In this document: positions 6,837 through 55,149 of the stretch, piece by piece | Numbering within the stretch: position 1 is the stretch's first letter | Layout of the letters: every line of letters starts with the position of its first letter | Source: Hysterium pulicare CBS 123377 | Taxonomy: Eukaryota; Ascomycota; Dothideomycetes; Hysteriales; Hysteriaceae | Assembly: GCA_000467715.1 (NCBI GenBank) | Contig: AJFK01000008.1 | Coordinates: forward strand, 1-64,000 | Length of the DNA stretch: 64,000 bases | Reading direction: 5' to 3' | Program-made: the position numbers and the translations under genes | Notes under the pieces: generated by a model | Databases searched by the model: none | What the model was told of the DNA's origin: nothing | Seen by the model: the letters and a program-made list of their open reading frames with translations, nothing else

Positions 6837-9800
6837 ATGTTCCAAGGATTCCAGGTACAGTTACTCTCCCGCATTGTAGTTGTCAAAGCTGACCGACTGG
6901 TTTGCAAAGCGTATCAAAGGTGCTCTTGAGCGAGTCGACGCTCGAATAGCTGAAGAACAGGCGAGGCAGAAGTCTACCCAGCAGCCGCCCTCTAGATCAG
7001 GTTCCTCCGCAAGACGTTCCAGCTCCCGGAATTTGTCGCCCTCCAAACGGACTATTCGATCTAAGGATCAAGATAATGGGAGCAAGGCTCCCGCGACTGG
7101 AAAGGGCCCTGATCCCTCAGAGTTTGATCCCGAATTTGTTATAGGAGAAGATGATGAGCCTAGCCGTGCTGGAACCCCTCGGCCCAAGGAGAAGATTGAT
7201 GCCCCGGAATCCTCACAAGCAAATGGCAAGAATGAAAAGGAGCAGAATGGGTCTGGGCAAGCTGCAGAGGCTAAGGCTGGCAGCCAAGCTGAATTTTCAC
7301 CAGAAATTCAGGCGCGGTTGCGGAAATTAGACAAGCTCGAGCCTAAATATTCTGGTAGATTGTTGTCAAGTTTCCGCTTTACATGCCGGTCATTCTGACA
7401 TCCCTTGCAGAACTCCTACGCTCGTATCGAATTGCTCATGCCAGGGTTAGCGCCATTGAAGCCTTCGAAGCTTCCCTGCGCGAGAATACTCCTTTGACCT
7501 CTATTACTGAACCTACCGCTTTTGTAGAATACCTCGGTCAGATAAACATTAAGGGGGATATGGTCATGGAGGAACTGAAAAGGGTCTCAATGGAACGGGA
7601 CGAGCTAAACAAAAGACTTGAAGACTCGGAGAAAAGGGCCAAAGAAGCCTCAGATAAGGTTTCTCGATTGCAGGCGCAAACGCCTACGTCTACTGTACCG
7701 TTGGCTGCATCCATTGACGCAGAGGATTCTCAGCAAGGAGCAAAGGAGCACTCGAAAGTCGAATCAAAACCGGCCGATGCCAACGAAGACGAGGATTTTT
7801 TCTCTTACGACAGCGAGCTACCACGTATTCAATCGCAACTTCAGGAGAAAGAACAAAAAGTGGAGGAACTCGAGGTAACAAATAAGGCTTTAAAGAATGA
7901 CTTGGCTGTAGCTCAAGAATCCGCCGAGCAACTTGTACAAAATCTAGAGACGGCAACTAGAGATCTGCAAGCACTTAAAGACATGTCAGAGCGCTCGACA
8001 AAGGAAGCGAACGATCGGCAACAGACTCTCGATACTACGATTGATGAACTCAAGTCCAAGTTAAAGAGCGCGGAGCAAGAGCTTCAAATGCGCTCTGAAG
8101 AGCACGGTAAACATGAAACTACTGTTGCAGAGCTGCAGAGCAAGGTTGAAAGTGCAAACAAGGAGTTAGAAGAGTTGCATGCTGCTAGCGGAGAGCAATT
8201 GTTGGAAGGCGACGAACAGGACAGGCTACGAGGTCAGGTTGAACGGCTTGAGAAGGACCTTTCGGCACTCCGTGAGACACAAACGAAGAATGAGAAACGG
8301 AACGAAACGTTAAATAACCTAGTCAGTAGTCTACGAGACCAGTTGAGAGATACGGAGTCGAAGAAAGACGAAGCCGTAGCCGAACTTGAGCATGCCAAGA
8401 AAGAATTGGAATCTGGTCCCAAGACCTCTGATGCTAGTCAACCCATGCTCGCCACAGAAGCGCAGAGTTCCACGGCTAAGGTGGACGAATCTGTCCCATC
8501 TAAAAAGAGGAACAAGAAGAAGAAGAAGGGAGGTAAAGCTTTGGAATCTGTTGCGGAGGCATCAAACAACAAGAGCAGTATCGGTCATGTTGCGAGCGCA
8601 GGTGACTCTGCTCCCACAACGTCACTAGAGGAAAGCCAAGGGACGTTGCCTCAACTCAAGGTCGATCTAAATAACAAGCTAACCATGATCGAACGTTTAG
8701 AAGGAGAACTCGCAGAGAAGGAAAATGCTCTAGAATCGATACGCAAGAAATTGAGAGACCAGGACGATTTGAAGGAGGAAATCGAAAGTCTTCGAGACGA
8801 TCTCATTAATGTAGGACAGGAACATGTCGAAGCCAAAGACAAGATCAAGGAACTTCAAACAGAGAAGAGCGCCCTCCAGGAGAGCATGAAAGCCATCGAA
8901 AAAGAAATTGTAGACCTTCGCACAAGTCAAGCCGCTAACGGTACTTCGGAGCAGGAACGGCAATCTTTGGCTGCCGAATTCGAAGAGTTGAAGACGAAAG
9001 CGGACTCTCTTCAAACCGATCTCTCTGTCGCTCAACAGCTCGCTGCTTCGAGATTCAAAGATCTCACTGATATGAGAGAAATTATTCAGAAAGCTCAACC
9101 GGAACTGCTATCGTTACGCAACGAAGTCACTGAGCTGCGCACCACGAAGGATGATCTCGCTGTAAAAACCGCAGAGCTTCGTCGTTTGGAGACAAGGGAA
9201 CAAGATCTCAGGTCTGAAATTGCAACCTATAAATCTCAGATAACTGATAAGGACGGTGATATCCGAACACTCAACGAGAAGGTTAAGCAAGAAACCTCGC
9301 AGAGATTGGCGCTTGAAGAGACTAATAGAAAGGCGCAAAGAGATATGCAGCGGTCTGAGAGTGATCGAAAAGATGCCGTCGACGCTCGAGATAGACTTTC
9401 GAAAGACCTCGCCAAAGCACAGGAGGACCTCAAAACCTCACGAGGATCGGTCCGTGATTTAGAGCAAGAAGTCGCCAAATTGAAGCGTGACACCGAAAGC
9501 TTAAGGGACGAGATTCAGCTCAAGTCAGCCCAATATGCAAGTGCTCAGGATCTAATGAACAGTATGCAAGACCAGACACAAGAGATGGGCACCCAAATGA
9601 AAGAAATACGCGCAAGGAGCGAGAGTCTTGAGGAAGAGCTCGCCGATGCTCACAGGCTTCTGAGCGAGCGGAGTCGAGAAGCCGAGACTATGAGAAGGCT
9701 TTTGGCTGACGCCCAAGGTCGAGCCGACTCAAGAGTCAGAGAAATGCAAGAACGGCTCGATCTCGCCGTTGAAGAGCGAGAACGAGCTGAGGAGCAAGCG

Positions 9801-10557
9801 AATAATTTCAGTCGTCGCCGTGCAAGAGAGCTAGAGGATTTGAAGCAAAAAGTTCGAGACGCCGAGCGTTCTCTTTCTCGAAGTGCTGAAGACAGAGACG
9901 ATCTTGCGGCATCAGAAAAGGAGTTACGCAGGCAGAAAGAAGATCTAGAACGCAGAGCTGCGCAAGCGGGTGAAGAGGTAGCTGAAGTGAGGCAGGCTAT
10001 GAGCCAGCTCCGTGATGCGTTAGATGACAGCGAAAAGCAAGCTCGCGATCTGGAGAAAGAGAAAGCTGATATACGCCGGGCTTTTGATGAAACGCAAGGT
10101 CGTCTGGAAAAGTTACAGAAATCGAGCAAGGTGAGTTCGCTCCTCCACGATTTTAATAGTCATGCTAAGCTTTATTAGACCATGTCCGAGGAGCTGCGAG
10201 CCCTCCAAACGGCCAAGACTCGTGCTGTTGACTCAAATGTGCAGTCCTCCAGAACTTCTATCGAGTCCTCGCCCTCTCGGTCACGCCTTGCATCCCCCAC
10301 ACCGAAGGCTCGGGCACTGTCCAGTCAGTCTGCCGACACAGCTGCGTCGAACTCCCTGGATTACGTGTATTTGAAGAACGTTCTGCTGCAGTTCTTGGAG
10401 CAGAAAGACAAGAAATACCAACAACAGTTGATACCAGTCTTGGGGATGTTATTGCATTTCGATAAGTATGTCACCTTCCTTCTACACTTCGTCCCATATA
10501 CTGAATTTGAACAGGAAGGATGAGCAGAAGTGGACGGCTGCAATCACTGCCAGATAG
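6837..10557 (+). CDS. GRIP-domain golgin, Imh1-like
   Basis: Five exons: 6837-6854, 6910-7354, 7411-10130, 10179-10465 and 10515-10557, total 1170 aa. The first exon is only 18 nt (MFQGFQ) and joins in phase 0 to RIKGALERVDARIAEEQAR, the N-terminus typical of fungal Imh1 golgins. A Ser/Pro/Gln-rich stretch follows, then about 850 residues of nearly continuous coiled coil (Glu/Lys/Leu heptads, about 190-1000), with one break containing a Lys cluster (KKRNKKKKKGG). The C-terminus, spliced from the last two short exons, is a GRIP domain: DYVYLKNVLLQFLE, then LIPVLGMLLHFDKKDEQKW, ending ITAR. GRIP domains bind Arl1-GTP at the trans-Golgi, where such golgins tether endosome-derived vesicles. Without the terminal mini-exon of 43 nt the GRIP domain would be incomplete. 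Confidence 0.92.
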
Positions 10558-17211: not shown

Positions 17212-19515
17212 TTATGCCATGCTTTCCTCAAACCTCCGGGCAATCTCCAATGTTGTCGAGTCCATACGAGAACCTCCGAGGAAAGTGACACTGAAAGGTA
17301 GCTCCCCTTGATCATTCTTGTTACCAGATAGCTCGGCTATTGGGAATGTCCCAGCGGGCACCGTGACGCCGCAAAGATCGAGTACGTTGCCACAATGAGT
17401 GAACTCTCCAAGCATGCTGTTCTTCTTGATGGGGTCTGCAAGTACCTCCTCGATCTTCCATTGCGTTGGGGCCGTAGGTACTACGATCACATCTACACCC
17501 GAAGTTGCATATGCGAACACCTTCTCTGCTTGACGTGTATATAGAACCTTGGCTTGTAAATCACGATAGGCTTGGACAGCTGTGCTTTGCCTTGCGACCA
17601 CCCGGTCCATGAGTTCTACGATGACGGGGTGTAGGACGCCCCGATTCTTCTCCAGCCAGTTGTCTGGTAGGCTTGCTAGTCTCTCGGATACGAAAGTCCC
17701 GTCGTAGAGGAGGTCGCCAGCTTTCTTAAAGGGTGACCAGTCGATAGGCATGAGTGTTCCTCCAATGGACTGTAGCTGTTTGATTGTCTCATTGAACAGC
17801 CGGCGATGGACATGTGAGCAGATATTAAGAGTCTCTGGAGGTGGGATGCCGAATTTGAAGGATTTGGCTTCGGAGCCTATCGAGTTGACATGACGTTCGA
17901 AGGCGATCTCTGGTTTAGCATAGCTGTCTTCTGGATCATATCCTTCAGTAAGCTGCCACACTGTCCGAGCGTCGCTAACATTCTTTGAGGTGATGGCTAT
18001 ACAGTCCAAGGATAAACACGCAGGAGTCACACCCCGGAAAGAAATAAGTCCTCTTGTGGGCTTGTAGCCGACTATGTACCGTTAGTCATTGGACTTTCAC
18101 CGGGCCGGCTTGGGTGTTAAAGAAGCTTACCGACGCCATTGAAACCACAGGGAACTCGTCCAGACCCAGCAGTATCGGTCGCCAGGGAAAAAGACACCAG
18201 GTTTGCCCCAACGCTCACTGCATTTCCACTACTCGATCCACCGCTGATGTAGTCTTTGTGGAAAACCGAGTGTGGGATGCCATAAGGGCTCCGGCATCCT
18301 GTCAGTCCTGTTGCTAATTGATCAAGGTTTGTCTTTCCGATGAAAATCGCGCCTTCAGCAATGACCTTGTCGAACACGACCGCGGAAGCGGATGGCACAT
18401 GCGCCAAAGGTGGGCACGCAGTCGTAGTTGGTAAACCAGCGATGTCGATACTATCTTTTACGCTGAACGGCACCCCAAATAGCGGAGGAAGCGCTGTCCG
18501 ATCCTTGAACCTTGTTGAAAGAAGTTTAGCTGTCTCTAGGACTTTATCTCTAGATTCGAGATGAATCCAAACAGCAGGGTCGATCTTCTGATAAACTTCG
18601 ATCTTGTTGTAGAGCGCATCTACCAATGTGACAGGTGAAAGTCCATTCTTGAAAGCTTTCTGAAGACTACTGATGGTAAGATCACCATCAAAATCGGGAG
18701 GTGTATGTGGAGGTGTGGATTCGACAAGAGGTTTGCTTCCGAGAGGTGTTAAAGCATCCAACAGAGGTTGGAGGCTGGCGATGAACCCAAACAACCCTTG
18801 AGACCAATGGATCATGTCCAATGTAGCGCATTTGAAGTTCGTGTCATTATATCCACTCGTCGCTTCTTCAATTCCGCCTGGATGGAGTCAGCCTCTACAC
18901 CTTGTATTTAGCTTCTCCCAAGGAGGGCCACATACAGCATTCGAAGCCTCGATCGTTAGCCTCCCTAATCGAAGTGGCGAAGCAGCATTCTGTGGTAACA
19001 CCAGAGACAATTAGGTGAGTGATCGCCCGAGCCTTCAGCTTATGCAAAATAGTAGTATTCCAGAATGACCCCTTTCCTGGCTTGTCAATAACGACCTCTC
19101 CAGGAAGCGGCTTTAGCTCATCAACTATATCATGGCCGTATTCGCCTCGAACGAGGAGCCTCCCTAGTTCTCCTCGATCACCTATGATAAGCTTATGCTG
19201 AGTGTTGTCTGGCGCAGCTGCTTGCCTGACCAGCTTTGACGATGGACAGTCGGACAGGTCGGGGACATGGCCTTCTCGAGTGTGAACTACGGTCATTCCA
19301 ACACTTCTACATGCTTCAAGTAGCTTCTTCGTCGGGACTATTGATGCTTGAACTGCCTCTAGGTTTCCACCTTGAATCTCACCAAAGCCCTTTGCCAACA
19401 GAAAATCTCTTTGCATGTCGATGACTAGCAGAGCAGTGTGCCGAAGAGGAAAGGTGAACGCATAGGGCTTAGCGTCAATCGAAAGCATCGAAAGAGCATC
19501 TTTGGATGTATTCAT
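17212..19515 (-). CDS. Fused isochorismatase-type hydrolase and allophanate-hydrolase-type amidase
   Basis: Exons (minus): 19515-18936, 18877-18131 and 18071-17212, total 728 aa. Intron 1 (58 nt, GTATGT...CTGAC...CCAG) joins the two domains in frame; intron 2 (59 nt) lies inside the amidase. Residues 1 to about 205 are an isochorismatase-fold cysteine hydrolase with the expected triad: Asp33 in LLVIDMQRDF, Lys145 in VVIDKPGKGS, and Cys178 in SGVTTECC. Residues from about 215 on are an amidase-signature enzyme with Lys334 (VPFSVKDSIDIAG), Ser about 408 (ISGGSSSGN) and nucleophile Ser432 (TDTAGSGRVP). NLDQLATGL, SPYG and KPTRG-SFRGVTPACLSLDC match allophanate hydrolases (AtzF, the Dur1 part of urea amidolyase). 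The C-terminal decarboxylation-type domain of AtzF is absent. Biuret hydrolases belong to the first family and make allophanate, the substrate of the second, so a two-step nitrogen-releasing enzyme is an attractive inference; other ureide substrates remain possible. Confidence 0.88.
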
Positions 19516-20253
19516 GATGGAACTGAAGGTAACAATGTTTCCCTTGGAAGATGAACAGAGACCTAACCGAAGCCGAACAAACAGCTTTCAGAGCGAGAGA
19601 TAATGGACAGAATTTTCAAAGGGCAACAACATAGGAAACGCGAACACGTCAAAAATAATCTTTTGATATCCAACAGATCGCCCCGCATTTCGGCAGCTTC
19701 GCGCGACGACGTGGGCCGGTGGCCAGAGCCGGCGGCGTAGGAGAGATAAGGTGTTGATGAAGACGATGTGCATAAGGTAAGACGCTAGTGCGAATGCGGG
19801 CGCGCTAGCTCTGAATATGCACACCCTGGCCAGCTTCATCCAACTCCAAAGAAACCACACATATCGACACTCTATTCTAGCCCTCTGTCTTACCCCACGA
19901 GATCTACGCCACGGTCGCTTGGGAGATGGTCCATCAGATCACTGGTCCATCAGAGAAGTCTAGCCTCCGTGAAGTGTATCAAGATGCCTAGGGCTCCCGC
20001 CACTATGGAGGGCCGTAGGCAATTGCTATCTTCCTGTTTCTTGGGTATCAGGCCTTTACCTATAGCTGAAGATATCTAGGACTTATGAACGTCACACAAG
20101 ATATATCTATGGGCAAGGGACCCAGGTAGGCTTGACCAAGTCGTTTCAAGCAGTCAACTGTTCCATACATTCTTCGATATATTCTTGCTCTCAGAGCTGT
20201 CCATCTATTCTGTCCATCTGATATCCAATTAAGAGCTTGAACTTGCTTCAAGA
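19516..20253. promoter_or_regulatory. Divergent control region between hydrolase fusion and NCS1 permease
   Basis: About 740 bp separates the two divergent start codons. HGATAR matches (AreA/GATA-factor type) occur at 19598, 19744 and, on the minus strand, 20026-20031. Three matches are close to what chance gives in this length, so they are only compatible with nitrogen regulation. A 90-codon minus-strand frame inside has no domain. Confidence 0.45.
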
Positions 20254-22301
20254 ATGTCTATCCTGTCTCCAAACCGCTTGAAGGCTAAGATTGCCCCTCA
20301 CCTTCACTGGAGGGTACCTTTCGAAAGTGGAAAATATGGATCTCGCTGGTCTAACAAAGGTAGGAACAGTCTCCCAGAGCATCTGACAATATAATATTGA
20401 TAACCTTAGATCTTGATCCTATTCCACCAGAGGAGCGTACTTGGGGCGGAATCGATTACTGGGCGTATTGGTGCTCAGACATGCTTGCCCCACCGCTAGC
20501 ATCTACAGTGTCTGGCGTCATGTCTCTCGGCTTCACTGCACGCGAGACTATCCCCATCGTCTTCTTCGGCTTCTTGATCTGCAGTGTTGTTATTACATTG
20601 ACTGGGAAAATGGGTATGAACTCTGAACCCTTCTGACTCTTATCGGAGTGTGGCACTGATAACCTCCCCAGGCGCGACATATGCTGTCCCCTTTCCGGTC
20701 ATTGTGCGTAGTATATTCGGAATGTATGGGTCGTTCCCGGCCATTTGCATACGAGGTAAGCACTTCTTGGTCAGTACCTATAAATGACACTAACATAGTC
20801 CAGCTTTCGTCGCACTGATGTGGACTGCTATTCTTACTGTGCAAGCTGGAAATTTCTTGCAGCGCTGCCTTGAAGCAATCTGGCCAAGTTTCATCCACTT
20901 TCCTAATCACCTCCCCGCAAATGCTGGCATTGACTGTAAGTGACTCATCATATTGGATTGTTCATTATTAAACTTTGTATAGCTGCTGGACTACTCTGCG
21001 TTTTCCTCTATTGGTTCATCCAGACTGCTCTCGCTGTCATGCCAATCCGAAAGCTGAGGATCTTGTTTTGGGTCAAAGGTGTCATTGTAAGTAGCCGAAA
21101 GGGCGTGGTATAACAATTTAAACTGACATGACATAGGTTCCACCAACATTTTTTGCCCTTTTCCTCTGGGCTGTTATCGTCACCCATGGGTATGTTCCTA
21201 CCTTCAAAAGGATCAAACTCATTTACTAATCCTACTCAGAGGTGGCCCGCTTGTGACAGGCAAGATGAAGCTCACCTCAACCTACATGAATACGGCGTAC
21301 TCTTCTTTGACCGGTCTTAACGCTATCATTGGCCTTTTCAGCTCGATGGCTGTGAATATGCCTGATTTTGGACGTTTCTCGAAGAACCGACTTGGCGGCT
21401 ACCACCAGTACTTCGCTCTTCCTGTTATTGGTTAGTGTTATGGGACACACCCTCGATTCTGTGTGCTTACTAGAAGTAGGAACACTTGGCGCTCTCACAC
21501 CCATTTTCGTCACATCTGCGCATTCAGTCATCTGGGGTGACTTCCAATGGTACATGCCTGCCGTTATTGCAGACTTCGATTCTCGGGCCGCAAAATTCTT
21601 TGTGTCTTTCAGCTTCATCCTCGCCACTATTGGGAACCAGGTTGCTGCGGGTAAGTTGATACTTACTGAGAACAAAACTTACGCTCGCTTACATCAAAAT
21701 GGCAGGTACATATCCCTTTTCCAATGATATCACCGGTATGGCCCCGAAGTACATCAACATCCTCCGAGCTACCTGCTTCATCTCTATCTTTTGCATCGTT
21801 TCGACACCCTGGAATATCGTAAAGAATGCAGCAGGTCTGCTTGCATTTCTTTCTGGATACTCGTGCCTCATGGGACCGCTTGCGGGTACCATGGTCTGCG
21901 ATTATTACATTATCAAGAAGCGTAAGCTCGACGTTGACCAGTTGTACACCGACCGTGGTATCTATTGGTATAGCGGCGGCTGGAACTGGCGGGCGTTTGC
22001 TTCTTTCTTCCTCGGATTCGCTCCATTGCTACCCGGCTTCGCAAAGGCTATCCATCCGGCACTTAACGTGGGAGGCGCCTGGAAGATCTATTCGTTTGCC
22101 TGGATCTTTGGTTTCGTTATCTCTATGCTAGTATACTATGTTATCTGCACCTATATCTCTGTTCCGACGGAGTCGATTATCGAGGAAGCCGTATACCCGC
22201 CGCAGAAAGGAGATATTACCCCACCATCTATTGACGGAGAGGTTGTCGACGCTAAGGAGGATTATGTTGCGAAGGAGAAGGAAATTGGCGAGATGGTCTG
22301 A
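20254..22301 (+). CDS. NCS1-family nucleobase/ureide permease
   Basis: Nine exons: 20254-20359, 20410-20613, 20672-20755, 20804-20935, 20983-21086, 21137-21189, 21240-21430, 21480-21650 and 21706-22301, total 546 aa. All introns are 47-58 nt with consensus ends. The product has about 12 hydrophobic segments. NCS1 hallmarks are visible: the N-terminal LDPIPPEERTWGGIDYWAYW, ATYAVPFPVIVRSIFG, the ANAGID loop, MPDFGRFSKN, and PFSNDITGMAPKYIN followed by ILRATCF and CLMGPLAGTMVCDYYIIKK. Members of the Fur-type branch import uracil, allantoin, uric acid or related compounds with protons. The C-terminal tail is hydrophilic, with Lys/Glu that may serve in ubiquitin-controlled turnover. It is divergent from the hydrolase fusion, suggesting uptake of that enzyme's substrate. 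The exact substrate cannot be read from the sequence. Confidence 0.92.
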
Positions 22302-23760
22302 TATTGGTCGGTTGCTTAGATATACAGGAAGGCTTTTGCCATTTCGCGCGGAGTAACGGTACCCTTGACAGCTCACCTTCCTTTGGCGCAACCATTAAGT
22401 CATATACCAAGTAGTCGTTCAATGCAAACTTCAATGCAAAGCTACAACTCTCCAAGCTGTGCTGTTCAGTCTGTGTGCTAGAACTGGCACAATTGAACGC
22501 AAGGCTTTATCTAAAGTCCGATCCATCAATACATTATGTCCTTTCGTACTAGCTTGGTCAACGTGCATTGATGTTACGAGGGAATCTAACCACACCCTTA
22601 ACCGCATACCCAAATTGCAGTGATGACTCAAGCAGTTGTGAAAACCTTTATTTTTTTGGTCCAGTAAGACAGTACTACTCTACAGAAACACTATACTGGT
22701 GGACTTTTGATTATGTGTTTTAAGCAGCCTTGCCTAATATGACTAGCGTGGAGGTTCCGTTTTCCCATTCCAAGGTTTTCGCTTACTTGATGAGATGATT
22801 CGTGAACGATGTGCATCTTATCTTCAACCCCAGAACGCCATCAACGTTGACTTCACCAAAGGCCCAGCAGGCCCGCCGGTCGCCCGCCTTCTCAGATGCC
22901 ATCATTCTATCGCAATGCCGTCAGAGCAACTTTTGGGCCCAGCACCACGGCTCTGGAAACCTCATTAAGAGCACACGACAGTTAGAGTAGTATTCTTGAA
23001 GTCAGTCAGGTTTGTTTCCGCCATCAACTCAACAAGCCAAATCATTCAAAGGACGATTCACTTTTACGTCCTTGGCTCTCGGCAGAGCGATCATCCTCCA
23101 GGGTTCTCGCGTACCTATCGATGCAGGGAGATCATGGCCAGCTAGGTGGCGCATTTTTCCAATCAAGCCTTTACCTCCGATCCCATACTATTGGTAAGTG
23201 GAGCCCGTCCTTCGCAGTGTTTGCTATCACGTGTTCGTCTGCCTATGCTGTTGATACTTTTTACCTTCTTGTTTCTGCTTGACTTCTATGATATTCTGAA
23301 TCTGTCTCTGCCATGTTTGTGTCTGTTATTCCTTCTGGCTTGTATGGAACGCAATTGCTCCAGCTGCCAATGGCGGATAATTTGTTTAGCTTTCCATCTT
23401 AAGAAGCGTCTCGGCGTGGAAATGGAGAGTGCAAGCCAGTTCTTACTAATACCTCACCTAATTCGGCACGTTTGGGTCTTACTGCATGTGACCTCTGACT
23501 TGTAGTTTCGTATTCTTGCTTCAAGGTCTTCGCTAATGAGATTATAGGGAAAAATTGGCTAGAAACCTAAAGTGAAGACTCCAAAGGGGACATTTTTGTG
23601 ACAATTCCACGTCCTGGTAGGAGGGACGCTGACATCGGCTGCAAACCATCGACTTTGCTTCAAGTAATTTCACGAAGCTCGACCTATCGGCACACAACGA
23701 CTAGACATCATAGAACGTATCGGATAGTTCACCGACTAATTGCCTATTTGTTCGGGCAGC
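22302..23760. other. Intergenic between permease and Zn2Cys6 regulator
   Basis: About 1.46 kb. It contains the rRNA-like relic described separately (about 22440-22640). The remainder is permease 3' flank and the promoter of the regulator; the last 200 bases before 23761 carry no clear element. Confidence 0.45.
22440..22640 (-). pseudogene. Possible large-subunit rRNA fragment (organellar-type relic)
   Basis: On the minus strand this stretch contains CTAGTACGAAAGGACATA, which matches the universal sarcin-ricin loop in the form (GUACGAAAGGAC) found in mitochondrial LSU rRNAs. A Val-coding or protein reading is not needed to explain it. Downstream it has a small hairpin (TGTGCCAGTTCTAGCACA) in the place where bacterial-type LSU rRNA has a stem, then GAGAGTTGTAGCTTTGCATTGAAG. 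Upstream the sequence GGTATGCGGTTAAGGGTGTGG could correspond to the preceding helices. If correct it is a nuclear copy of mitochondrial DNA (NUMT) or a decayed rDNA piece. Only the loop match is strong; the extent is approximate. Confidence 0.4.
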
Positions 23761-26393
23761 ATGAATTTCCGGCCTGATCCAGGTGTCTCTCCAACCGAAG
23801 GTTACGTTGGAAATAACGATCTAGCTTCAACAAACAAGAGCCGGACTCGCCGTCCTTGCGACTCATGTCGTCGGCGCAAATCTCGATGCGAAATGACTGA
23901 TGGGTCACCTCCTTGTGTGCTATGCATTTTCCATCGCCAGGAATGCACTTTTCTCGAAGACCCGCAACCAAGGAAACGGAAAGCAGCTTCACTCAGCGAG
24001 GAAGAGAGCAGCAACCTAACTAGGGATCCTTCACGCAAGCCCCAACCGACACTTGATAGAACTTGGCTTTCCACTCGATCCTCCAGTGACTTGTCCCATA
24101 AATCTCCGCATCCCATTCGACAAGCTCCGCCCATTGACGACTATGCAAACCTGAAAGGGCCTTCTCTGTTAAAAAAGACGCTGGGCCTACAGAATCATCG
24201 GCACAGTCGACTTATAGGTTCAACGTCAGAGTACGAACAGTTACTCCTCGAACTCGACTACAATGACAAAGACGAAGTCCCGGTCGGTCACGCGGCGCTA
24301 CGAAAGGTCAATGCCGTGGATGCATTTATCTTGTCTCCAGATGAGGGCACACGGAACCACGAAGAAGAAATCACTGATCTTGATGCTATTGAGATGCTGG
24401 TTGCTCCTCATGGGCAAGCACTCATCCATCTCTATTTTCGAATTATCCATCCAAGTTTTCCTGTCCTCCACAAGAAAGTCTTTCTGGAAAAGTATCAGCG
24501 AACTCACAGAGAATTTTCACCCCCTTTGCTTGCCGCCGTCTATATCTTGGCCCTGAACTGGTGGTCGTATAACAGTGAGCTTGCCCTTCTACCAAAGCCG
24601 GATGTGCCAAAGTTGGAGAAATTGGCTTCGAAAACTATGAACGATATTATTCATCGCCCAAAGCTCTCCACGATACAGGCCGGCCTGCTTATGCTTCAAA
24701 GGCCTGAAGGCGACTCCTGGGCTTTGACAACCCAACTTGTCGGCTTGGGTCAAGATCTAGGCCTACACCTTGACTGCTCCAGCTGGAGAATTCCGGGCTG
24801 GGAACGTGGTTTAAGAAAGAGACTTGCGTGGGGACTATTCATGCAAGATAAATGGGGATCACTGGTTCATGGAAGGCCATCTCATATAACCACTACCGAT
24901 TGGGCTGTGCAACCACTACAGGAAACCGACTTCCCCGAGAGCGCTGCGGATGAGGATGATGAAGATGGAAGTACGGAAGTGGAAAAAGGGAGGGCCCTCT
25001 TTTGTGAGATGATCGAACTCACCAAGATCCTCGCCGGAATTCTTACAGACTTTTATACCCTCAAAGCCGAAGAGGACTACCGTACACATGCTCGCGATGG
25101 CGTACGTTGGATACTTGATTTAGCTAAACCTAGTCAGCTGGCTTTGAAACAATGGTACGCTCAGATGCCTGTTTCTCTAAAAATGGAAAATGTAACCATG
25201 AGAAAGCTATCATCAACTGGTAAGCTAGCTACTCCTTCTTATGTCATGATGTCTGGCAACGTTTATGGAGAGGGCATCAATCCATTTCCCTTCCTACCCA
25301 AGATCAAGCTTAGGGACAAAAGCCCTTTGTGAAAACTTCTCGAGGCCAGAAAAGACACTCGCACCTCTTCCACGAGCTCAGATCTGTTCTGTAGGCCATA
25401 ATAGTCGTGTTATGATGGGTCAAGCATAGATAACATGTTACTTACAAAACTCATAGGTTACCTGCACCTTGGCTACTATGCAGTTGAAATCACCCTCCAC
25501 AGACGTATCATTCGGTCACTTTCTTCCGTCGACGACCCAACGCATATCTCGGTCTTACGTACTGCTGCACGGGCACGACTGTACGTAAAGTCCCGGTACA
25601 AAGTCTATGTCTCCGTCTTTGTACTTTTCGCTTATAAGCTTACTACCCACATCCCACTTAAGTGGTGTCTAAAGATTAGAACACTATAAGCAGAAGTATT
25701 AAGCGGGTTCTGGCAGTACCAAAACCCCTTTTCGAACATCATGCTAATTGTACTCCCACCTTTAGCCTCTCCGCAATGGACTTCGTGCAGGGATTGCGCC
25801 CCGAGCATCTCCAATCATTCTGGTATTCTGCCTCTAAGTACTGTTTTGCGCTCATTGGATCCTTCGTGTCCTTATTATGGGCAACATCGCTGGAAAAGAA
25901 GGAAGCAGATTTCTATAAAGCCAAGTTAGACGAATATAGGTGGACTTTACGTCTGTCCTCCAAGTCAGCAGACTTTCTGGAGCGCGCGATTAGTATGCTT
26001 GCAACTTCAACTGGCATCCTGGTCAAGGCTGTACCGGAAAGGCCCATCTCGGATTTCATCTTAAATCGGCGTGCCAAGAGCTTGTCAATGCATCCTTCAA
26101 CGGCACCTTTCGTAACCCATTCACATTCTGGGGCTCCGGAATATTCGGAATCGGAGACGTACGAGACACATACTCCTGACGTTACAGAGACATCACCTGC
26201 AACAGGTGATTCAAGTGACTTCATCACGGATCACATGTGGTTTTCAAATGCTCAAATGCATGATATGGATACTGTCTATGGCCAGAGTACTGATCCAGAT
26301 ATGCGGCATGCATACATGGAGGACCCAAATATAGGCGAAATGGTGGATGACTATGACCCTACCAACTTTGGTGCTCCTAGTCTACAAAGATAA
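23761..26393 (+). CDS. Zn2Cys6 transcription factor resembling TamA/Dal81
   Basis: Exons 23761-25219, 25457-25580 and 25766-26393, total 736 aa. The introns are long for this window (237 and 185 nt) but splice in frame. The start is the first Met; the frame is open a little further upstream without ATG. The binuclear cluster has cysteines at 33, 36, 43, 52, 55 and 62 (C-x2-C-x6-C-x8-C-x2-C-x6-C), with an arginine/lysine loop (RRRKSR) and the linker ECTFLEDPQPRKRK. The middle-homology region follows: ALIHLYFRIIHPSFPVLHK, SPPLLAAVYILALNWWS, RPKLSTIQAGLLMLQRPEG, LVGLGQDLGLHLDCSSW, and RLAWGLFMQDKWGSLVHGRP. These are the pattern I associate with TamA/Dal81 regulators of nitrogen catabolism; in yeast Dal81 is needed for allophanate-induced DUR gene expression. 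The C-terminus is acidic and Ser/Thr-rich. The location beside an allophanate-hydrolase-type gene is suggestive. Confidence 0.85.
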
Positions 26394-50144: not shown

Positions 50145-53100
50145 ATGGTCACTTTGGATAGCCCCGAAGTGCTGTCTCAGTTTCATCCGCTTTCAACGAG
50201 CGAGATGGACCATATCGTCTTGCCAAGAGAAAGCCAGCTGCCGTTAATAAGCATAAGGCCTCTAGGCGAAGGGGCCCAAAGCAGTGTTGATGAAGTCGAA
50301 CTATTCTGTTCGTCCTATGCTAGGAAGGTATGGAACGACTGCGGGGAAAGTAACCGACGTCGATTCTTAGAGGAGATCAAGCTCATTAAACGACTCCATT
50401 CACACCAACATGTTGTAGAAATCTTTCGGACCTACACGAGAGGCTCCGAGTTAGCGATCCTCATGCGGCCTGTGGCGGACGGCGACCTATGGAGCATACT
50501 GCAAGAGCCGGAAGAGCAACGGAGGCATTTGATTAGCGACGAATCTTTGACCAGAGCCTTGGGATGCTTGTGCACTGGTCTTGCTTTCATTCATCGGGCT
50601 GATATCCGACACCAAGACATAAAACCACGAAACATCTTAATTCACCAACAGACTTTTCTCTTCACGGACTTTGGCTTATCAAAAGATCTAATGAATCTCA
50701 ACCAATCCATAACGGAAGGAACAGTTGCAGGAACTCCTAACTATCGCGCGCCAGAGGTAGAAAGTTGGGACTCTCGGGGACGATCTGCAGATGTGTTCTC
50801 GCTGAGCTGTGTACTCATGGAAGTCTGGAGCGTCTTGAGGGGCCATGGTTGCGAAAGAGGCGACCCCGCGACTTTCTCCTCCATGGCTCCATTCTCTCAA
50901 AATATCGATGGTTGCCTCAAATGGATAGATGGCAAGTCGCCCAAAACAACCGAACCTTTGGATACCGTGTGGCTGAAGCTATGCCGGACCATGCTACAAA
51001 GCAGCCCTGATAATCGGCCCAAGATGAAGGACGTCCAAGGTATAATTATTTCGGACTTGGAGGGAAAGGCTGCCGGGTCGGCATCTTCTTTGTTCTGTGA
51101 CCGGTGCTTGGGTGTCAGGTCGGATGATGGAACAAGCGCCACAGTCACGAAAGCTTGTTCTCCGCCAAAATGTTGCGAGGAAACCCAAGAGCTACACCAG
51201 CAATTTCTCGAGCTCAATGGTCAACACGAGCCAAGAGCGAATCTCTCTCAAAGAGACCACACCAAAACTACCCCTGAGAAGGTGTCCCAAGGGGTCCAAG
51301 CTAACCTTATGAGCGAAAGCAACGCCACGGTTCCCGAATCACATCTGAAGATTACGGCCGTAAATGACGACGAATTCCCAGGTGTCGAGAAAGCCACAGT
51401 AGAGGAAGCGAAGGTTCAGCAGTCTTATATTCGCGAAATAGGAATCGAAGAGGAGTCTTTGGTTGAAAAGCTGGGTTCGTTCCTAAAGGCTATGTGGGGA
51501 GCAGCGGTAGGCCACCAGTTCGATCCCAAGCTATCTGCACTCCACCCAAAACGCTCTTACTTAGTTTTGACGTCTCATGAGCTACCAGACACGTGCGAGT
51601 TCTGTGTACAACTGTCAAGACTTAACATAAAGGTGACTTGAAACTCCTGCTAATGTGTTCTAGTCCGAGATAACTACCTCTGCTCGATCTGTTCCAACAT
51701 ATTCCCAAACGCATGGACCATCTCTTAGCATCGCAATTGGTCAAAGGCCCCAATACCTTGGCTCAACCATAATGAATTTGTCAATGCAGCCTTCTACAAC
51801 CCAGTCCGCTAAGCACCAAGCATGTGGCCATCCTCTGGATATGGACTTCTCGGGCCATGCAATGAAACATCAGTTATCTTCCGATTCGGTCACTCTAGTC
51901 CAAAGCGCACCCAATAGCCAAGACTCCTCAGTTCTGTCTACAAACTCTGGCACTCTCAACGTCCACTGCGCTTCCTCGTTGCACCAACCTGGCACACAAA
52001 TATCCGACACTCTCTTCGAGGGTGTCAATCAGGGACCAACATGCCAAGTTGATTCCATTGATACACCTGATCTCCGTACATCAAATGAGCATAACCTTTC
52101 TCGTCATAAACTTCAAACGGAACTCTATCCAACAGCACCATTGCGCTCTGGGGATGTCAATCGATCCTCCTACAAGACAACTTCCAGTGATGAGGTACCG
52201 TTTAGCACACAGACACCTGTGTCACCTAAGCCTACATCCAGAATAGAGGAACTATTCGAGGATAAGATGCCGTCTCAAACTTCAAATCCTATTGACCAAG
52301 ATCTCGTAGTAGTTGGGAACCCGCTACAACAGCCGCCTCCTCGTCCGCCTCCTTCGGCACATTGGAATTCAATAATGCCCTACCCCACTGCTGCACGTTC
52401 TCAACTCCATATTTCTCCAATTTACTCTATTACAGATGTGTCTATGGCTCCTCCTACGATACCGATACCCCCATCATGTCCGCCTCAGGTCCCTCAGCAC
52501 TCCGCCTCAACCTCGCCTCCACATCTACCTACAATAATGCAGTGCCCTAACGATACATACATTCAGCCGCCGCCTTCCCCGCCGATGATGCCTTGGCAAC
52601 ACAAAGAATATCTTAGAGAAGTCTCAAAACCTATGCCGCTCAGCCCACCACTTTCACCACCTCCATCTCCGTCTCCGCCGCCGCCGTCAGCTCCAATATC
52701 TCCTAACCAGGGAAGGAAAGCCAAGGACGCATTGCATACTATGGCTTATCCTCCACCGCCGCCACCTCTGCCCCCAAACATGTGCAACTACGATTACGCA
52801 GTTGCTTCGCCACTGCGACCCCTATCTCCTTCTTTCCCGCAATGCTTAAACTCTATGCAACCCCCAGAGTTCTATATACCACCTCCACCTCCACCTCCGC
52901 CGCCTCCTCCGTCCCCAGACATCTACAATTACAAACACACGATTACCTCGCCACTGCGACCCCTTTCTCCTTCGTCCCCGCAATGCTTAGATTATATGCA
53001 ACCCATCGAGTTCCATGTACAACCTCCACCTCGACCTCCACCCCCTGTTCAACCCCTTGAACAAGAAAATAAGGTTTTCAGAGCACGGGATTCTAATTTA

Positions 53101-53553
53101 CCACCTCTGCTTCCGCTTCTGCCTCCACCTCCGCCGCCACTTTCTTCGAACGGACAACACCCCAATTACTCAAGCTTCGGACCTCCCCCTCCCCCTCCGC
53201 CACCACCACTACCTCCTCCTCCTCAACATCTCGTTGAACACAGCAGGAGCAGGAAGGAATCAGATTCTACTCCTCCGAAGATTGCAGACTCGGGGACCCA
53301 GGCAAAGCCAGCACTGCGTCCCCATTCCACAAAATTAAAACTTGCTTCTGCCGCTTCTGCTCCTTCTATTGCTCTACATCAGGATTTTCGTGATCCAATG
53401 CACTTGCCTAGCAGCGCAACCACTGCTCTGAAGCAAGGTCCACACGCTGTTAACAGTTCTTTCAATACGGCAAAAGACTGTACCCAGATGACTCCCGAAG
53501 CACCTACGGGCAGAAAAACTGTCAAGCGTTCTATTTTCAAATCTCGTCTTTAA
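50145..53553 (+). CDS. Protein kinase with polyproline (FH1-like) C-terminal extension
   Basis: Modelled as exons 50145-51605 and 51664-53553 (58-nt intron, GTACAA donor, TGCTAATG branch point, TCTAG acceptor, phase 0), total 1116 aa. If the intron is not used, the first frame ends at 51641 (498 aa) and a separate start at 51772 would be needed only 130 bases on. Kinase landmarks: Gly loop GEGAQSSV (41-48), Lys61 in YARKVW, the catalytic HQDIKPRNIL (Asp158), TDFGLSKD (Asp175), and GTPNYRAPEVESW. It is therefore expected to be active. From about residue 490 the protein is Ser/Thr/Pro-rich, and beyond about 690 it contains runs of up to 11 prolines like formin or WASP proline regions, including a 47-residue tandem duplication. 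Such runs bind profilin, SH3 or WW partners. No FH2 or WH2 module follows. A signalling-to-cytoskeleton role is inference. Confidence 0.7.
52750..53019 (+). repeat. Two-copy coding tandem repeat, 141-nt (47-codon) period
   Basis: Both copies contain the block SPLRPLSPS.PQCL..MQP.EF preceded by a proline run and a Asn-Tyr pair. The matching codons (tcgccactgcgacccct) start at 52807 and 52948, 141 bases apart. Nucleotide identity over the shared block is high, so the duplication looks recent. Confidence 0.8.
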
Positions 53554-53668
53554 GGATCGACGCCACTGTGTGCAAACCCTTCGTAGAATAAATTCCATTC
53601 ATCAATCTCATACGATTATCGCCTCACAATCATCTCAACTTCCCCCATCCCTAAGCCTAAACCTGCAC

Positions 53669-55149
53669 TTACCAAAGCGGCAAAAGAGACTTAGCCTTGT
53701 ACAACTCCTCCAAAGCCTTCACGTCCTCCTCACTTAGCTCCAACCCAACACACTCTACCGCCTCATCAATCCTCTTCTTACTCCCAAGTCCCAAAATTGG
53801 ATTGACCCCCTTCCTCAAGCTCCAAGCCACCGCGACTTGAGACATCGGCTTGCCCAACTTCTTCGCACCCTCTTCGAGCCGATCAACAAGTTCTTTGTCG
53901 TTCTCGCCGATCATACTCTGCGTGAACTGGTCGGTTTGGGACCGCTGAGACGACTTATCTGCCCAAGGGCGTGCGAGAGTGCCCCGTGCGAGGGGGGACC
54001 AGGGAATGAGGCCGACGCCAGTATGGCTGCAATAGGGGTGCATTTCGCGTTCTTCTTCGCGGTAGATGAGGCTACTATAGGTTAGTCGAAGCGGAATGTC
54101 ACGAAGGACACAGGAAAATACGCACCTATGGTAATTTTGCATACTGATGAATTTGTGCCAGCTGTTCTTTTCAGCAATATTTTGCAGCATTTGGAACTCC
54201 CAAGCTGCCATCTATTTCTAAATGTTAGAAATTATGCTTCAGGAGGTTTCAGGGCTACGTACCGAGCTAGCTCCTATGTAGCGTACTTTACCACTCTCCA
54301 CGACGTCGTTCAAAGCTTTCATGATCTCTTCAAACGGAACTTCGCGATCCAATCGATGGATTTGAAGGACATCGATATACGTCCCCAACCTTGTCACTAT
54401 TGTTAGTCACTACATTCATAAACCCACTCTCCTCAATCTCCTCTTATTTCCATGAAGTACAACTCACCTAGCACAACTAGCATCCACAGCATCAAAGATA
54501 TGCTTCCGACTCAATCCCACCCGGTTCACCATGGGCCCATCATTCGTCATACTCATATGAAAATCCACCTTCCCGGTCTCTTTATGAATCAAATCATCAT
54601 CAACACCAAAGAAGCATTTAGTAAGAATGACGAGTTTCTGTCGCGGGATGTTGAATTTCTTAATCGCCTTCCCAATAATCTCCTCGCTGGCACCTAGACC
54701 GTAGACATCGGACTGTTCAAAACGTTAGTAAATGGTTCTCTCGCAACGTGGTTGATTAGAAAAGGAGGTTTTGGTTTTTGGTCGGGGAGAGCGAAGAAGG
54801 GGATTGGGGGAAAAGATGGCGTACGGTATCCCAGGTGTTTATGCCCATCTTGAATGCATGTTCGAGCAAAGGCAACGCTTCCTCCTCTGGCATCGCCCAT
54901 TCCTCGACTTCGGGACGGCCGTAGGACATGCCGCCGAGAATTACTTTTGAGACTTTGAGGCCGGAGCGGCCGAGTCTGCGGATTGAACTCTGTCAGCATG
55001 TGGGATATTTTGTTGGAGTAGGTTTGGGAGATAGAGAAGAGAGCATAGTGGAGGAACAAGTACCTGGTGTATTGCATTTTAGGAACTCCATCTTCTTTCC
55101 CTGAGATACGCATATGGGAGATGGCATCTTGGAAACCTTGCGTCGTCAT
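53669..55149 (-). CDS. Aldo-keto reductase
   Basis: Exons (minus): 55149-55064, 54975-54825, 54712-54468, 54389-54263, 54211-54126 and 54071-53669, total 365 aa. Fold and catalysis are clear: the strand start [22 protein letters not shown], Asp-Tyr of the SDVYGLG segment, Lys in [10 protein letters not shown], His in DVLQIHRLD, and ASSMAAWEFQ. The NADP-binding C-terminal part is [13 protein letters not shown] and, at the cofactor end, [15 protein letters not shown]. It resembles the fungal AKR9-like or aryl-alcohol/versiconal reductase group; the substrate is unknown. The last acceptor is a tandem TAGTAG (ending 54075 and 54072); the downstream one gives [11 protein letters not shown], the length seen in the family, the other adds one Ser. 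It converges with the kinase gene 115 bases away. Confidence 0.9.

Follow-up and report, generated by a model that had tools for sequence, protein, structure and literature searches.

The breakdown of biuret and triuret has been worked out in bacteria. The described proteins closest to those considered here are TrtA (PDB 6XIX/6XJE) and the BiuH of Rhizobium leguminosarum (PDB 6AZQ), which act on triuret and biuret, respectively, the allophanate hydrolase AtzF and its counterparts from Granulibacter and K. lactis, the hydantoin permease Mhp1 and the fungal Fur-type permeases, and the transcription factors TamA of Aspergillus and Dal81 of yeast. In the present study, the window, that is, the whole 64-kb stretch of DNA analyzed from contig C6 of the 37.2-Mb, 596-contig genome of Hysterium pulicare CBS 123377, was found to contain a block of three genes, in which an enzyme that joins a TrtA-related ureidohydrolase domain to an allophanate-hydrolase-type amidase is encoded divergently from an NCS1-family permease, with a TamA/Dal81-like Zn2Cys6 factor beyond the latter. 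We propose that the block is a nitrogen-scavenging module for the import of a small ureide and its breakdown via allophanate to ammonia, a reading to which we give a probability of roughly 0.68. The genes and their parts are as follows.

17212..19515, minus strand: fusion enzyme gene, three exons with GT-AG introns, 728 amino acids, stop codon at 17214-17212 (spliced model)
19515-18936, minus strand: enzyme exon 1, bulk of the ureidohydrolase domain, including the residues equivalent to the D36/K142/C175 triad and the substrate lysine K145 (BiuH numbers)
18877-18131, minus strand: enzyme exon 2, remainder of the ureidohydrolase domain, where MIHWSQGLFG has Ser in place of BiuH Q215/TrtA Q202, followed by the linker and the amidase's first half, which carries the signature motifs FSVKD (Lys) and SGGSSSG (Ser)
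18071-17215, minus strand: enzyme exon 3, the other half of the amidase, including LLYDGTFVSER, stopping where an allophanate hydrolase C domain would begin
19516..20253, no strand: enzyme/permease intergenic region, 738 bp between the start codons, a candidate bidirectional control region
20254..22301, plus strand: NCS1-family permease gene, nine exons, 546 amino acids
22302..23760, no strand: permease/factor spacer, 1,459 bp from the permease stop to the factor start
23761..26393, plus strand: gene for the TamA/Dal81-like Zn2Cys6 transcription factor, exons 23761-25219, 25457-25580 and 25766-26393, 736 amino acids

An earlier, sequence-only reading had placed three such genes at 17212 to 26393 and had suggested that they form a dedicated ureide module. 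All three gave clean spliced models at these coordinates, the spacers it had put at 740 bp and 1.5 kb correspond to the 738 and 1,459 bp above, and its family calls were borne out by matches to isochorismatase and amidase models (Pfam, NCBIfam), to the NCS1 family and to Zn_clus and Fungal_trans.

The enzyme comprises an isochorismatase-fold (cysteine hydrolase) domain at residues ~13-236 and, at residues ~259-727, an allophanate-hydrolase-type amidase without the C domain. Its best 120 homologues of 7,993 significant ones among 8,000 scored, to which all enzyme counts out of 120 refer, share 63-87% identity with the query across 86-100% of its length; all of them carry both PF00857 and PF01425, and every named organism among them is a fungus. 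When compared with PDB entries, the amidase domain matched AtzF best (335.8 bits), followed by other allophanate hydrolases, while the amidase-family biuret hydrolase 6C62 scored 90.4. The amidase-signature serine motif SGGSSSG is present in all 120 listed homologues and LLYxGxxVxER in 118, and the fusion has the amidase motif and LLYxGxxVxER in common with AtzF and the Granulibacter and K. lactis enzymes. The Tyr and Arg of the latter motif are presumably those that bind allophanate in the Granulibacter enzyme. A Foldseek search with a structure model of the enzyme (mean predicted local distance difference test score, pLDDT, 75.5; built from 29 sequences) likewise ranked allophanate hydrolases first, the best 50 rows all being of the amidase family and none pertaining to the N domain; in these rows the identity to the fungal amidase domain is 38-39% for AtzF and the Granulibacter enzyme and 32-33% for that of K. 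lactis.

Unlike these three enzymes, the fungal fusion lacks a C domain and carries an N-terminal ureidohydrolase instead. The NCBIfam allophanate hydrolase match ends at position 447 of 600, and the C domain model PF21986 found no match in the whole genome, where the control was matched in 2 of 14 genomes; urea amidolyase was rejected as a candidate because no C domain was found in the genome. The loss of the C domain need not abolish function, because the isolated amidase domain of AtzF retained amidase activity, according to the available part of PMC3944691. No second allophanate-hydrolase-like gene was found in the genome, the other amidases being at most 36% identical.

The N domain, when scored against the PDB, is nearest to TrtA (209.6 bits; 51% identity over 213 aligned amino acids), ahead of BiuH-type biuret hydrolases (168-175 bits) and RutB (80.7 bits). 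With the residue roles of BiuH taken from the accessible portion of PMC5806882, the catalytic triad D36, K142 and C175 is complete in 114 of the 120 fungal N domains, one position being gapped in each of the other six and none substituted, and the substrate lysine K145 is kept in 116, with Arg in two and gaps in two; the alignment took the first 270 residues of the homologues, from which some of the gaps arise. The fungal domain thus has the same triad and substrate lysine as TrtA, and it also agrees with TrtA at F35, E160 and Y187, the positions that separate TrtA from BiuH. With BiuH it has the fold, the triad and K145 in common, while BiuH's Y47, Y53, D173 and Q215 are missing.

In a tree of 135 sequences, drawn with a midpoint root for display only, the 12 fungal N domains included form one clade (100/100) on a long stem of 1.6. 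The clade lies outside the BiuH-type clade and groups with TrtA-type sequences against it (99/90), and among the TrtA-type sequences it is adjacent to a set that is mostly proteobacterial and cyanobacterial (97/94); patterns taken from TrtA and the fungal domain had been used to choose the bacterial sample, which therefore favors TrtA-like sequences. In our reading, the N domain goes back to a TrtA-type gene of bacteria and has had its pocket re-tuned, as its residues and its position in the tree would suggest. The genome also encodes, on contig C488, a stand-alone BiuH-like isochorismatase in which K145 is replaced by Arg and Q215 by Glu and which forms a long branch in the same tree; a gene upstream of it resembles, by eye, an amino acid permease.

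The two activities also meet in bacteria. Of 80 bacterial loci with a relative of the N domain, several being cut by contig ends, 24 also have an allophanate-hydrolase-like gene (>200 bits) nearby, and so the fungal fusion joins enzymes that are found together there too. A second, BiuH-type gene is nearby in 41 of the loci, and both kinds accompany the relative in 12. No fusion was seen in any of the 80 bacterial loci: the 15 neighboring pairs lying within 250 nucleotides are all out of frame or have a stop between them.

The sequence-only reading had suggested comparing gene order in relatives, and the linkage proved to be conserved. As a proxy for direct gene order, proteins of the same species on contigs of identical length (the longest one given for each protein), together with gene numbers, were compared among 65 enzyme, 57 factor and 53 permease rows from the three protein match listings; contigs of identical length are assumed to be the same one, and the species are related, so that the events are not independent. 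All three genes are on contigs of identical length in 14 of the 14 species named in all three listings. Taken pairwise, the contigs agree for enzyme and factor in 27 of 30 species, for enzyme and permease in 23 of 25 and for factor and permease in 21 of 26, when random placement of the second gene would give 1.15, 0.76 and 0.92 matches, respectively. In seven species the enzyme and permease bear successive gene numbers (Pleosporales sp. CAS-2024a, Geoglossum simile, cf. Caloplaca sp. 1, Chaenotheca, Rusavskia, Piccolia and Letrouitia subvulpina), and those of the enzyme (087310) and factor (087330) are close in Neocucurbitaria VM-36. Some of the contigs are small, namely those of Melanomma (53,903 bp) and Polyplosphaeria (117,456 bp), which hold all three genes, and those of Chaenotheca (25,848 bp) and Rusavskia (29,871 bp), which hold the enzyme and permease. 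With class labels as we take them to be, the three genes occur together in Dothideomycetes and Geoglossum, while lichen fungi have the enzyme-permease pair only.

The permease matches PF02133 over its cut-off and TIGR00800 with 273.1 bits (E 3.8e-81), below the strict cut-off of 353.1, and the only solved relative found by sequence is Mhp1. It shares the NCS1 family with Mhp1 and the Fur-type permeases and differs from them at the positions of Mhp1 Q121, N314 and N318, where it has Leu, Gln and Gly. We take these to be substrate-binding positions from studies on Mhp1 and Fur, although the Fur-transporter papers examined do not name them. Among the 120 listed homologues, the Q121 position is Leu in 79, Ser in 8, Thr in 2 and Phe in 1 (30 gapped), the N314 position is Gln in 115 (3 gapped), and the N318 position is Gly in 107 and Asp in 10 (3 gapped), while the paralogues on contigs C217 and C230 keep Gln, Asn and Asn. 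Because these residues are changed, the substrate of the clade is probably different from the usual uracil or allantoin. A grouping of the permease with a clade of known, unrelated substrate, which the sequence-only reading had named as evidence that would speak against a module, was not seen: the listed relatives are uncharacterized proteins labeled uracil/allantoin permease, with the same altered positions. One permease 69% identical to that of the window is recorded as coming from the plant Mikania micrantha, on a contig of 96 Mb, for which contamination or misfiling is likelier than a plant gene. An assembly of Pyrenula has an 853-amino acid protein that carries PF02133 together with PF04082, as though the permease and factor genes had been merged in annotation, and this fits their adjacency.

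The factor shows the PF00172 (Zn2Cys6) and PF04082 (Fungal_trans) domains, an architecture common to TamA and Dal81, and several homologues bear the name “nitrogen regulatory protein OTam”; the window factor is, in addition, linked to a catabolic pair. It is 47% identical to the product of a second gene of the genome, on contig C436, whose zinc cluster we take to be closer to the canonical TamA. Because all 120 listed homologues of the factor are nearer to it than to the C436 protein, the window factor appears to be a separate, conserved paralogue. The earlier likening to TamA/Dal81 therefore holds for the architecture, while the argument built on the need for Dal81 in yeast DUR expression is reduced to an analogy, since the C436 paralogue is the more TamA-like one.

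A parallel arrangement exists at ~62-71 kb of contig C217, where a TamA-like factor (~26% identical to that of the window), an NCS1 permease, a hydantoinase/dihydropyrimidinase-type amidohydrolase and a nitrilase-type CN-hydrolase lie together, the finer enzyme names being given by eye. Because the same regulator and carrier families are paired there with different ureide-type enzymes, the C217 locus supports co-function at the window locus. A lipoxygenase gene stands just before that cluster. Factor/permease pairs on contigs C289 and C420 were considered as further linked loci and set aside, the factors being ordinary Zn2Cys6 proteins by reading of the translations, and C217 alone was kept.

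From this evidence we infer that the three proteins would cooperate as follows. The permease would import a small ureide, and the N domain, as a Cys-Lys-Asp amidohydrolase of TrtA descent, would take ammonia from a short linear ureide, for which biuret, triuret and another carbamoyl-ureide are our guesses, named in that order. Allophanate, formed either at once or through a spontaneous decarboxylation, would then pass to the amidase domain, which would split it into ammonia and carbon dioxide, and the linked TamA-like factor might turn on the divergent enzyme/permease pair when an inducer is present. Biuret is tentatively favored as the substrate, another ureide is possible on somewhat lesser grounds, and triuret is rather doubtful. 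The dedicated ureide module suggested by the sequence-only reading is thus supported by the conserved linkage and by a permease that is not visibly in a clade of unrelated substrate, and of its “biuret or another ureide,” the short ureide is retained while biuret becomes only a guess, because the N domain is of the TrtA and not the BiuH lineage and lacks the distal glutamine.

Several observations weigh against this proposal. The intersubunit glutamine (BiuH Q215/TrtA Q202), which holds biuret or triuret at its distal end, is replaced by Ser in all 118 readable fungal sequences (2 gapped), and the position of TrtA N41 is Gly in 114 of 120, Ala in 3, Ser in 2 and Asp in 1, while both the Gln and the Asn are kept in 79 of 79 readable bacterial TrtA-type sequences. 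Replacement by Q202E or N41Y cost TrtA >90% of its triuret activity, as the consulted part of PMC7948467 reports, and the fungal replacements would leave neither biuret nor triuret assured as the substrate. At the position after the Gln-to-Ser site, 106 sequences have Gln and 12 have Glu, so that a one-residue shift may be possible but is not uniform; residues 204-222 of the structure model, which include the site, have a pLDDT <50, and the model was not used for this question. The NCBIfam models also score below their cut-offs, at 217.6 bits versus 370 for the BiuH equivalog and at 448.7 of 487 and 422.7 of 511 for allophanate hydrolase. No allophanate-hydrolase-like gene >200 bits was seen in 56 of the 80 bacterial loci. 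In the 738-bp spacer, the GATA-type sites, two HGATAR and one YTATCD, are about what chance would give by estimate, and no regulatory motif was recognized. A urea-carboxylase-like protein on contig C51, which has biotin carboxylase and carboxyltransferase but no amidase, could supply allophanate by another route. As to linkage, the contigs differ in length in 3, 2 and 5 species in the enzyme-factor, enzyme-permease and factor-permease comparisons, respectively; nine of these ten exceptions involve a protein cluster of several members, whose strains may differ, and Lineolata rhizophorae (factor versus permease, single members) may be a real exception.

The affinity of the N domain to TrtA makes an enzyme of a triuret pathway worth weighing, in which the N domain would make carboxybiuret, biuret would form from this by decarboxylation, and the amidase would take both biuret and allophanate, as reported for bacterial TrzF. 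The nesting among TrtA-type sequences, the 51% identity and the TrtA-like F35, E160 and Y187 agree with it, as does the mention, in the available text of PMC7948467, of triuret genes in some, mycorrhizal, fungi. The two residues critical for TrtA activity are, however, Ser and Gly in the fungal proteins, and bacterial TrtA-type loci often contain a separate BiuH-type gene, whereas the sole BiuH-like gene found here, that of C488, has altered K145 and Q215 positions, so that we regard this pathway as unlikely. An entry by way of cyanuric acid was also considered and rejected, since no match to AtzD/TrzD (PF09663) was found in the genome, an absence that is likely rather than proven: none of 14 control genomes matched, and 2 of 12 bacterial genomes did, one over the cut-off at 2.2e-138, so that the model does recognize its targets. 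A RutB-like role in a pyrimidine or purine catabolic cluster, with an ureidoacrylate-like or uric-acid-derived intermediate as the substrate of the N domain, would suit the uracil/allantoin labels of the permease relatives, the recognizable relationship with RutB and the departure of the fungal site from BiuH and TrtA at the distal end. It seems improbable to us because RutB is far more distant than TrtA and BiuH and because the permease lacks the residues at Q121, N314 and N318 that the C217 and C230 paralogues keep; to our knowledge, the Rut pathway has no use for a fused allophanate hydrolase.

The C51 protein and the failure to find a C domain in the genome would be in keeping with an amidase that mainly hydrolyzes allophanate made from urea, the N domain being a minor add-on. 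Yet the genome has a urease, the C51 gene is divergent from a LamB/YcsF gene and is read as lying in a 5-oxoprolinase-type context, and the conserved partners of the fusion are the permease and the factor, C51 being another contig. The occurrence of the stand-alone amidase in fungi also does not follow that of urea carboxylase, since Mycosphaerella graminicola has only the former and A. nidulans only the latter, as far as the part of PMC3073912 at hand goes, and a role mainly in urea metabolism therefore appears fairly improbable. A second LamB/YcsF-carboxyltransferase locus (the LamB/YcsF label being given by eye) is on contig C180, and it and C51 possibly belong to 5-oxoproline or carboxylation pathways without an amidase. 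That three unrelated genes are neighbors by chance would accord with the flanking genes, since of the nine open frames scanned on the flanks, the five with Pfam matches (a zuotin-like protein, a protein kinase, Paf1 and, in two exons, an actin-like protein) have no relation to ureides. The same matches make the cluster appear to comprise just three genes, and chance placement, which is already contradicted by the identical-length contigs, some of them small, of all 14 species with the three genes, is very improbable; what would remain of it is a conserved neighborhood without shared function. Elsewhere in the window, an Rfam scan gave no match, a 939-amino acid open frame at 7359-10178 on the plus strand has no Pfam match and lies in a region of strong AT skew (0.318 at 8001-10000), and a strong local GC skew of -0.373 at 52001-54000 covers the end of a 629-amino acid open frame.

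The proposed module consists of parts of known kinds, and its novelty lies in the fusion, in the changed pocket and in the conserved layout of the three genes. A stand-alone allophanate-hydrolase-type amidase (“A”) was reported in S. nodorum, C. heterostrophus and M. graminicola, one of them without any urea carboxylase (Strope et al. 2011, PMC3073912, in the portion available), and these Dothideomycete amidases are probably the same proteins as the fusion; the words isochorismatase and biuret have no occurrence in that text. Since it also occurs in a Dothideomycete that lacks the carboxylase, the amidase cannot be taken as just one half of urea breakdown. The presence of trtA in some fungi is mentioned in passing in the accessible text of PMC7948467. 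The earlier statement that such a module had not been described in fungi must therefore yield for the stand-alone amidase and for trtA, which are in print, and it stands for the natural fusion and the three-gene cluster, on which no paper was found in the literature searched. In the parts available, a paper on Neocosmospora treats its biuret hydrolase by docking, and PMC2409186 gives no link between isochorismatase and allophanate hydrolase. The synthetic plant selection gene BA2H (PMC13155557, as far as available) joins the same two activities of a biuret hydrolase and an allophanate hydrolase, leading from biuret via allophanate to ammonia, but it is man-made and linked through a self-cleaving P2A peptide, while the fungal joining is natural and has its first domain from another lineage.

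If the proposed module is real, a natural two-step hydrolase fusion with its own permease and regulator, found across several ascomycete lineages, would put these fungi into the biuret/triuret nitrogen route. Both compounds arise from urea fertilizer, and triuret also arises from uric acid oxidation (PMC7948467, in the part available). The fusion would be the natural counterpart of the synthetic biuret-hydrolase/allophanate-hydrolase pair built for plants, and the locus offers one clear enzyme, one transporter and one regulator as test objects. A bolder and more doubtful possibility is an ancient ascomycete module that arose from a TrtA-type gene of bacteria. Once fused to a truncated allophanate hydrolase, the TrtA-type pocket would have been adapted, through the changes from Gln to Ser and from Asn to Gly, to a ureide taken by no characterized member of the family, with the permease as the first eukaryotic carrier of a linear ureide and the TamA paralogue as a pathway-specific activator. 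If that were true, duplicated TamA-like factors placed with NCS1 permeases, as on C6 and C217, would be a general fungal layout for the scavenging of ureides.

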